From: a virus | DNA: 49,424 nucleotides | Strand: one strand, 5' to 3' | Virus record (IMG/VR): IMGVR_UViG_3300025652_000008 | Coordinates: 1 to 49,424 of that record | In this document: one piece after another, positions 10,551 to 16,531 of the stretch | Layout of the letters: each line of letters opens with the position of its first letter | Numbering within the stretch: the first letter of the stretch is position 1 | Position numbers and translations under genes: made by a program | Notes under the pieces: generated by a model | Told to the model about the DNA's origin: nothing | Databases searched by the model: none | The model's input: the letters and a program-made list of their open reading frames with translations, nothing else

Positions 10551-10719
10551 CTATGTGTGCGGCGAATTAACGCCACTTGATAAGATTAATAAGGCGATTG
10601 TATTGGCTGAATTAGTTAGATCTCACACTCAGTACGTTGAATGCCAACAAACGGTTAATAGCTGGTTACTTTGGTATGATGCTGTTAATAAATCATTTAG
10701 TGTTGACAGTAAAAAATAA
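10441..10719 (+). CDS. Rz1-like o-spanin lipoprotein, 92 aa
   Basis: The signal peptide MLRNTVIMIAMLLMM ends in lipobox SGC, with the lipidated Cys at residue 18, and a Pro-containing segment (RQLPQKPTN) follows. This is the outer-membrane partner of Rz. It starts inside the Rz-like gene in a different frame and runs past its end, a classic overlapping spanin pair. Its 3' end overlaps the promoter of the RNA unit downstream. Confidence 0.82.
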   Translation: MLRNTVIMIAMLLMMSGCASTINQLDAQRQLPQKPTNYVCGELTPLDKINKAIVLAELVRSHTQYVECQQTVNSWLLWYDAVNKSFSVDSKK

Positions 10720-10731
10720 TTGTTATATTGT
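10703..10731 (+). promoter_or_regulatory. Sigma-70 promoter of the structured RNA/tRNA unit
   Basis: TTGACA at 10703-10708, 17-bp spacer, TATTGT at 10726-10731; expected start near 10738. The left half matches the TTGACA box of the symmetric sites, but the facing TGTCAA is missing, so it fires one way. Confidence 0.7.
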
Positions 10732-11000
10732 TTGATTGTTCAGGCACAAATACTACTCAAAACTCTGGATTTAGCTTAGTTGAGTAGGCAAGTAAAAGAG
10801 TGAGACAACACTACGAAAACCGACTCACTCACGTTACGAGTGGATATTTTTAAAGTGTTTATCGATGGGCAAAGTCTGAAACGGTTGCAAACGTGCCTGA
10901 GAATTTCAGATATAGACACTTTAACAATGTGATAAGTTGAGTTCAAGTACAGTAAGGCTGATGCGCAATCATTAGCACTAATCACATTAATCTAATCCGT

Positions 11001-11012
11001 TAAGGAGGTGAT
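11001..11012 (+). promoter_or_regulatory. 12-nt perfect complement of the 16S rRNA 3' end
   Basis: TAAGGAGGTGAT pairs fully with the bacterial 16S tail ATCACCTCCTTA. An ATG follows at 11017 at ideal spacing but opens only a 6-codon frame (MPATRL, 11017-11037). An overlapping ATG at 11034 opens another 6-codon frame (MTSKLI, to 11054). It may serve leader peptides or be a ribosome-binding element of the structured RNA. Confidence 0.6.
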
Positions 11013-11086
11013 TTATATGCCAGCTACGAGGCTATGACTAGCAAGCTGATTTAACGTTGTGAAGCGTGAATGATGCAAACAAATTA

Positions 11087-11164
11087 CGGAGTGTAGCGCA
11101 GTCTGGTTAGCGTACGTGCCTTGGATGCATGTGGTCGTAGGTTCGAATCCTACCACTCCGACCA
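11087..11164 (+). tRNA. tRNA-Pro (anticodon UGG), CCA encoded
   Basis: Acceptor stem CGGAGTG/CACTCCG; D stem GCGC/GCGT; anticodon stem CGTGC/GCATG with loop CTTGGAT, so the anticodon is TGG; T arm GTAGG-TTCGAAT-CCTAC; then A and CCA. It reads CCA (with wobble, other CCN) proline codons. It is the only tRNA I found and lies within the structured RNA unit. Confidence 0.95.
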
Positions 11165-11317
11165 AATTACTCCACCCCTACGCAACATGGGCAGAGGCGA
11201 AAAGGTCATCTATAATAGCAAAAATCTCCTGCTTAGACCCTGACGAAATGTTGCAGACAAAGGTATTTGATTTGGCCTTCATGACGATTAACCATCGTGT
11301 CGATTCGGTAACAAGTG

Positions 11318-11337
11318 CCCTCATATGAGGGTTTTTT
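11318..11337 (+). terminator. Terminator of the structured RNA/tRNA unit
   Basis: CCCTC (11318-11322), loop ATAT, GAGGG (11327-11331), then six Ts. Confidence 0.8.
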
Positions 11338-11359
11338 ATTATCTTAAATTCAAGGTATT

Positions 11360-15442: not shown

Positions 15443-16531
15443 ATGAAGACTATTGTAATTAACAATGAGTTCCGCGAATTAGCCAAAACTGATGCCCGTA
15501 TGCAATCGCATATTGAGTTTATCGGCAATGCTCGTCGCTATGCAGCTCGACACGAACGTCATTTACTTGATTTACCTCGCGATGCACAAGTTCACGTAAA
15601 CGCTGGCATTCCGATCCTAGACTTCTTCCGTGAAACTGACCGCGCTGTTGAAGGCGTTCGTTTAGACGACAAGTTCTTATTCATGGATGACCTATCAGGC
15701 TTAGCCAAAACGGTTAGCGTTGGCAAGCTATCTGCTGTTTCATTAAAGTCTAGCGACATTAGTGATGATGTATCAGTGAGCATGGATTTCAATGCTGCAA
15801 TTAAGCATGACCATATCAGTGCTGATTCAGACCGCAACCCAATTCCAGCGTTTATGGCTGGTGTTACTATGGGCTACCGTCATCGTGCAGGTTTAGATTC
15901 TGAGAGCATCGATTTGTATGGTGATTCAGTTACATTGAAAACCCGCAAGCTTACTGAAAAAGTCGGCTCGTATATGCTTAATGGTGACATCACTATTAAA
16001 GCAGACGGTCAAGCTGGTGAAGGTATCAAGAATCACCGCAACACTAAGAAGATCAACTTAGGTGCTGCAGGTTATAACATTGATTTATCATCTAACACCA
16101 CGACTAACGATGAGTTGGTTGCGTTCTTTAACCAAGGGTTTGCTAAAGAATTAGATGATCAATCATTAGGCTTTGTAGATTCAATGGGTTTATCCCCTGC
16201 GATATACCGCCGTTTAATGGTGCCGATCTCTAAGACTGGTGAATTTAAAGGTGGTGTTGAAGGTGAGCCGTTGATGGATTACATCAAGCGCGTTTCTAAC
16301 GTTCGCAACTTCTTAAAAGACTTTGCGTTAGTTGGTAACGAGTTCTATGCATATCGCAAAGACTCAAGCATCATCCGTCCAATTGTTGCAATGGCTACAG
16401 GTTCATTCCTAATGCCTCGCCAGACTCCAGTTGAAGGTTATTCAACTCGCATCGTTACCGCTCAAGGTATTGAGATCAAGAAAACGATGAACGACAAGTA
16501 CGGCGTGTTCTATGCTAGCGTGATTAGCTAA
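15443..16531 (+). CDS. Major capsid protein (DUF2184-type, HK97 fold expected)
   Basis: Forms the icosahedral shell. The 362-aa protein has an N-terminal helical arm, then VNAGIPILDFFRETDRAVEG, and a C-terminal FLMPRQTPVEGYSTRIVTAQ typical of this capsid family. It follows protease and decoration genes in the usual order. Codon use is even and the ribosome site (AGGAG) is strong. The stop overlaps the next start (TAATG). Confidence 0.85.
   Translation: MKTIVINNEFRELAKTDARMQSHIEFIGNARRYAARHERHLLDLPRDAQVHVNAGIPILDFFRETDRAVEGVRLDDKFLFMDDLSGLAKTVSVGKLSAVSLKSSDISDDVSVSMDFNAAIKHDHISADSDRNPIPAFMAGVTMGYRHRAGLDSESIDLYGDSVTLKTRKLTEKVGSYMLNGDITIKADGQAGEGIKNHRNTKKINLGAAGYNIDLSSNTTTNDELVAFFNQGFAKELDDQSLGFVDSMGLSPAIYRRLMVPISKTGEFKGGVEGEPLMDYIKRVSNVRNFLKDFALVGNEFYAYRKDSSIIRPIVAMATGSFLMPRQTPVEGYSTRIVTAQGIEIKKTMNDKYGVFYASVIS

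Follow-up and report, generated by a model that had tools for sequence, protein, structure and literature searches.

A window of 49,424 nucleotides, the whole stretch analysed here, carries a unit of about 600 nt whose existence as a structured phage RNA is well supported by comparison with its relatives, and which on the same comparison represents a new, previously undescribed family of large phage noncoding RNA. The RNA appears to be built as a constant scaffold in which loops and tRNAs are swapped as cassettes, and one homologous site in it is complementary to the 3' tail of 16S rRNA. We give an even chance to the view that it is a modular scaffold docking on 30S subunits and carrying tRNAs together with tRNA mimics. 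The family is carried by marine phages, several of them lab-grown on Shewanella, and a description of it was not found in the open-access papers searched.

The unit and its boundaries

The window is a 49.4-kb phage contig with terminase, portal, head, tape measure and tail genes, and the unit is flanked by the spanin genes Rz/Rz1 on one side and a convergent MazG-like gene on the other (Table 1). The earlier note, made from the sequence of the window, had described a promoter, a terminator, no convincing protein gene between them and a complete tRNA-Pro in the 3' half, all of which we could confirm. The promoter sequence recurs at the corresponding place in the relatives L002, L004 and L020, and L006 has TTGACA-16-TATACT there. 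This conservation is partly a coding effect, because the -35 box overlaps the last Rz1 codons; promoter-type matches in the window are at chance level (10 found vs 8.3 expected), and the automatic search gave a clear promoter match in about half of the copies. Coding on either strand was ruled out because of large non-triplet indels among the four close relatives and because of frozen blocks inside the unit, where 62/62, 62/63 and 51/51 positions in L002, L004 and L020 are identical to the window, while in the flanking genes of the four closest phages 4-fold degenerate sites differ by 16-44%. The unit is thus, by its predicted signals, autonomous, with its own promoter and terminator.

The dense series of stems in the earlier note fared differently. 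Minimum free energy by itself was rejected as evidence of structure, the total folding energy of the unit being barely better than that of shuffles (z = -1.24; 2/20 shuffles fold as well). Since the whole-unit fold is unexceptional, the claim of an ornate RNA was tested via relatives, and covariation in homologues upheld the structure and some of the individual stems, while others that the note had named were not reproduced.

Table 1. Features of the RNA unit in the window
Feature	Position	Strand	Remarks
Sigma-70-type promoter TTGACA-17-TATTGT	10703..10731	+	-35 overlaps the 3' end of Rz1
5' variable hairpin CTACTCAA/TTGAGTAG	10753..10787	+	unrelated sequence in relatives
Frozen block B1 including hairpin H1	10797..10861	+	100/98/100% identical in L002/L004/L020
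Hairpin H1, CACTC/GAGTG	10826-10830/10838-10842	+	alternative partner GAGTGAG 10798-10804
Possible P2 extension, AUAUU 10844-10848 with AAUGU 10926-10930	10844..10930	+	excludes P3
Core helix P2, 10849-10861 with 10913-10925	10849..10925	+	loop is an exchangeable cassette
Core helix P3, AAUGUGAU 10926-10933 with AUCACAUU 10981-10988	10926..10988	+	loop is a second exchangeable cassette
Complement to whole 16S rRNA 3' tail, UAAGGAGGUGAUU against GAUCACCUCCUUA	11001..11013	+	dG -19.7
6-codon ORF MPATRL behind the 16S complement	11016..11037	+	probably not the point
Hairpin P4, CAGCU..AGCUG around GCUA/UAGC	11021..11048	+	other hairpins instead in relatives
Hairpin P5, 5 bp, GNRA loop (ACGUU-GUGA-AGCGU)	11054..11067	+	comparative
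tRNA-Pro (UGG; gene TGG), encoded CCA	11087..11164	+	complete; 66 bits vs Rfam tRNA
3' domain, stems 11182-11188/11248-11254 (GCAACAU/AUGUUGC) and 11284-11288/11294-11298 (ACGAU/AUCGU)	11165..11316	+	
Intrinsic terminator	11317..11338	+	hairpin 11317-11332 plus T-run

Scaffold, cassettes and distribution

The covariation test proposed in the earlier note was run on an alignment of the anchored core (A1, 17 rows), in which the four helices H1, P2, P3 and P5 were scored, and it was passed. Segments were cut by hand with AUAUU and AAUGUGAU as anchors, L080, L089 and L006 each had a one-base bulge taken out, and L004 and L124 contribute two rows each because the module is present twice in each of them. 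In the four helices 96.2% of cells are paired and double-sided changes occur in 18/31 pairs, against a shuffle mean of 8.2 (0/500 shuffles reach 18); the covariation score is 0.385 vs 0.146, and sliding the partner strands by 1-3 columns lets pairing fall to 31-51%. Both sides have changed in 11/13 pairs of P2 and 4/5 pairs of P5, whose loop is GUGA, GCGA or GAGA in most copies, and H1 occurs as CACTC:GAGTG, CGCTC:GAGCG, CTCTC:GAGAG and ACCGC:GCGGT. P3 is near-invariant, with 95% of cells paired and one-sided wobbles as its only standard-pair changes. As predicted helices, H1, P2 and P5 are supported by covariation and P3 by conservation. In the distant copy L010 one core helix has changed in a compensatory manner, and the aligned sequences show a putative scaffold of H1, P2, P3, the 16S-tail complement and P5 that is maintained by compensatory change.

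The possible extension of P2 is compatible with 17/17 rows, including changes from U-G to C-G and from U-G to U-A, yet it excludes P3; the P2-P3 junction may therefore switch between alternative pairings (the alternative folds have -34.9 and -31.4 kcal/mol). The P2-P3 core is not essential to the role of the 3' part, because it is absent from L020 and from the Shewanella phages 3/49 and ZP9. The 3' domain is restricted to the window and its three closest relatives.

The remaining parts turn over quickly. The slot that holds tRNA-Pro in the window contains Arg and Ser tRNAs in L002/L003, Gly, Ser and Arg tRNAs in L006, Ser and Thr tRNAs elsewhere among the relatives and none in L004/L005 and L020/L021, so that the tRNA does not form an integral part of the RNA. 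The P2 and P3 loops of the window and L002 are unrelated in sequence, with neighbouring genes 91-94% identical. In the cassettes of L124, L004, L061 and L128 we found tRNA-like domains with a T-arm and with an acceptor helix that continues into P2 or P3; this fold, with the acceptor helix fused to the scaffold, is the free minimum-energy fold in L124 (P3), L004 and L061. Outside tRNAs callable by ARAGORN, 8 T-arm motifs occur in about 20 kb of elements, compared with a background of 9 in 648 kb, real tRNAs included. The domains of L124 and L004 are unlikely to decode, because their anticodon-like arm has a loop of only 3 nt. The tRNA-like insert in the 5' region of L004 is found again in the P3 loop of L061, hence cassettes move within the RNA. 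A recognisable tRNA-like domain is absent from most copies, and in the window the real tRNA is the only part of this kind. On this comparison of copies, the scaffold is constant and the loops and tRNAs are swapped as cassettes.

When the stretch was compared with named phages by blastn, the tRNA alone was among the best matches. Relatives of the neighbouring spanin gene were used to reach IMG/VR contigs that preserve the stretch to either side of the tRNA slot, and motif scans after L010 yielded L061, L064, L067, L080, L081, L089, L105, L124, L127 and L128. Counted without redundancy, at least 15 further phage contigs of IMG/VR carry homologues, as do the cultured Shewanella phages 1/4 (133.8 kb), 1/40 (139.0 kb) and 3/49 (40 kb); phage 1/41 (43.5 kb) retains a remnant, and the copy of ZP9 is truncated. 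The unit occupies six or more different genomic positions. It follows Rz1 in the window group, separates a gpF-like head gene from the scaffold gene in L080, L081, L089, L127, L128 and 3/49, and adjoins baseplate-type genes in L061, L105 and L124. In L010 and L064 it precedes genes of putative membrane proteins and in L067 an HNH gene; phages 1/4 and 1/40 have it in their tRNA region, and 1/41 has it behind the major head gene. The sequence matches thus place the family at many sites in Shewanella and probable Shewanella phages that are otherwise unrelated, and the unit is best described as a putative independent cassette that often brings its own promoter and terminator.

Other matches were set aside. 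Viral pattern matches L057-L059, L062, L065, L066, L068 and L069, most of L077-L109, and L111-L113, L115-L120 and L122-L123 had no stem partner or promoter nearby and were attributed to chance. One exact motif, scanned in 84,980 bacterial and archaeal genomes, gave 7 matches, each attributed to chance for want of the partner strand, and no prophage copy was found by that motif. A covariance model (R1) over 43 loci returned zero further family members; on whole virus records few known copies scored, and the model is thus too insensitive for large screens.

Phage 1/4 is a lytic myovirus (PMC9963407), and annotation of its record at the element is limited to one 'pseudo tRNA' and two tRNAs. The feature labelled 'pseudo tRNA-OTHER' or 'putative vtRNA' (L137:3911-4032; NC_025436 41910-42031) folds as a T-arm ending a helix of more than 20 bp, and on this predicted fold it can be interpreted as a tRNA-like domain belonging to the 3' part of the RNA rather than as a failed tRNA gene. 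A peptidyl-tRNA hydrolase gene (L137:7712-8001) lies about 3.5 kb downstream of the element and tRNAs. Unlike most metagenomic RNAs, this one occurs in cultured Shewanella phages, and for phage 1/4 on S. glacialimarina a published infection model with tRNA-modification data exists.

Several cassettes and junctions have counterparts elsewhere. The sequence ATTTCATTCGATAATAAGGATGGTGATAATATCT at the junction with the 16S complement is common to L020 (1620-1700), L089 and the 134-kb phage 1/4 (L121), which points to recombination there between very different phages. The P3-loop cassette of L089 (6101-6280) shares 77-88% identity with unannotated DNA separating Q from the holin gene S in the lambdoid phages IME10 (L139, NC_019501, about 15981-16271) and CUS-3, and with a stretch of Arthrobacter phage Kumotta (L140, 39674-39780). 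It has no match in Rfam, lies inside long helices in those other phages too, and resembles an RNA domain passed from one phage RNA to another, unrelated one. Ahead of S, lambda-like phages have a region (L139:1480-1770; lambda NC_001416 44838-44995) whose ends are conserved in about 195 phage records, many of them from Klebsiella phages, and whose middle is variable. A CACAAC lies to each side of its central GUUGUG and either one can pair with it, a three-strand layout as in the P2 extension and P3. This region is possibly an undescribed modular RNA as well, and many phages may carry modular RNAs of this sort, with RNA cassettes that can be swapped.

The 16S complement and possible roles

The site facing GAUCACCUCCUUA, which we take to be the free 13-nt 3' tail of 16S rRNA in gammaproteobacteria, occurs at one homologous position between P3 and P5 in 17/17 copies compared, including those of ZP9, 1/4 and 3/49. 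Its dG is -9.7 in L080 and otherwise -12.6 to -20.2, and in the 14 copies scanned throughout, nothing else in the element reaches the energy of the complement. The site of the window is the strongest on either strand of the 49 kb (the next has -15.4), and the Shine-Dalgarno sites of the phage's own genes range from -1.3 to -11.6. The complement continues beyond GGAGG to GGTGATC, an extension that an ordinary Shine-Dalgarno site does not require, and several departures from it are A-to-G changes (GGTGAT to GGTGGT) that keep G-U pairing with 16S rRNA. The same stretch could instead pair within the RNA (AAUC..UCC..GGA..GAUU).

We hypothesize that, after transcription, the real tRNA would be released by normal tRNA processing, a plausible step because the tRNA is complete and its CCA is encoded. 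The remaining scaffold would dock on the 30S subunit through a duplex of 10-13 bp with the 16S tail and bring the tRNA-like modules to the translation apparatus, where they could act as mimics or decoys, either in a take-over of translation or against tRNA-cleaving defences. Such a mechanism would rest on complementarity and mimicry. The fast turnover of cassettes on a fixed frame is the outcome expected from an arms race between host and phage. Phage tRNAs evade or counter tRNA-cutting defences, as set out in two papers (PMC11555353, PMC10264068), and tRNA-Leu fragments occur in phage-infected Shewanella glacialimarina (PMC12907706); together with the ribosome binding reported for GOLLD RNA, these are parallels by analogy, not proof for the present RNA. 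In its full form, the idea of an RNA-only effector that clamps the 30S subunit via the entire 16S tail, presents exchangeable tRNA mimics and reprograms translation or shields it from tRNA-targeting immunity is possible, but we consider it rather less likely than not.

The cassettes could also serve solely as decoys, baiting or replacing tRNAs for host anticodon nucleases or other tRNA-cutting systems, with the 16S-like site being incidental. The rapid exchange of cassettes, the unannotated tRNA-like domains, the counter-defence by phage tRNAs and the infection-linked fragments just cited agree with this, but a normal 7-nt anticodon loop is missing from the tRNA-like arms examined, many cassettes, including both of the window, are not tRNA-like, and the 16S-tail complement is among the most constant parts of the RNA, so we regard the explanation as unlikely. 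An ordinary pre-tRNA transcript with debris of a tRNA array, whose fragments are shuffled by recombination around a functionless leader mistaken for a scaffold, would account for the real tRNAs of changing identity in the slot, the tRNA-derived fragments and the truncated copies in 1/41, 3/49 and ZP9. It is quite improbable in view of the compensatory changes in H1, P2 and P5 and the GNRA loop, the blocks frozen against a synonymous divergence of 16-44%, and the scaffold retained in the tRNA-less copies L004, L020, L010, L064 and L105.

Phage minigenes are known, e.g., lambda bar, and the 16S complement might be the strong Shine-Dalgarno sequence of a conserved minigene or leader peptide, the RNA regulating by its translation or stalling. 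In the window and L081 the spacing to the ATG of MPATRL-stop is good; however, most copies lack the ATG (L002, L004, L020, L067, L089, L105, L124, L127 and L128), neither a start codon nor a peptide is conserved behind the complement among the copies, and the window has no downstream gene on the same strand before the terminator, which leaves this reading a shade less credible again. That the RNA belongs to the GOLLD or ROOL family would suit its size, phage location and tRNA association, and their variable linkers are able to hold tRNAs (PMC12286853), but the covariance models of both found no match in the window (E<=10) or, with E<=5 or E<=1, in 14 other loci, and we consider membership very improbable.

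Comparison with known RNA families

The Infernal search against GOLLD and ROOL had been suggested in the earlier note, which took the RNA for a member of such a class or of a new one; its negative outcome speaks against the former, and the new class is supported. With gathering and relaxed thresholds tRNA was the sole Rfam family matching the window, and in the homologues tRNA and int-alpA alone reach the thresholds. Introns, RNase P RNA and riboswitches were discarded as candidates because none had any Rfam match. The int-alpA RNA (RF02996) is likewise a phage RNA, but it is short (71 positions), absent from the window and a neighbour, not the same RNA: it lies just 3' of the core in L067 (9310-9379, minus strand), followed by an HNH endonuclease gene, and it adjoins the truncated copy in Shewanella phage ZP9 (L141:1349-1418).

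In tmRNA, which acts on ribosomes, a tRNA-like domain is joined to other RNA domains, and the present family resembles it in this combination. Unlike tmRNA, however, its acceptor helices are closed inside longer scaffold helices and it has no tag ORF. ARAGORN called no tmRNA in the window or the scanned loci, and the Rfam tmRNA model gave a fragment match at the T-arm of L124 (14.8 bits, 18 positions only).

The large phage RNAs GOLLD and ROOL are among the closest known systems. GOLLD is also a large ornate phage RNA located near or containing tRNAs, with a variable linker that sometimes carries them, and it is reported to bind ribosomes in pull-downs (PMC12286853). It is often longer than 800 nt, compared with about 600 nt in the window family, and has one linker instead of two variable helix loops and a tRNA slot; the 16S-tail complement was compared within the window family only. 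ROOL env-120, with 659 nt, is similar in length, phage-encoded, often near tRNA islands and equipped with a variable linker (PMC12286853). GOLLD assembles as a 14-mer cage and ROOL as an octameric one. The new family, supported by covariation, is an addition to the small set of large phage RNAs described so far. By analogy it possibly works like GOLLD or ROOL, and its 16S-tail complement and tRNA-like cassettes provide concrete hypotheses for the role of large tRNA-linked phage RNAs.
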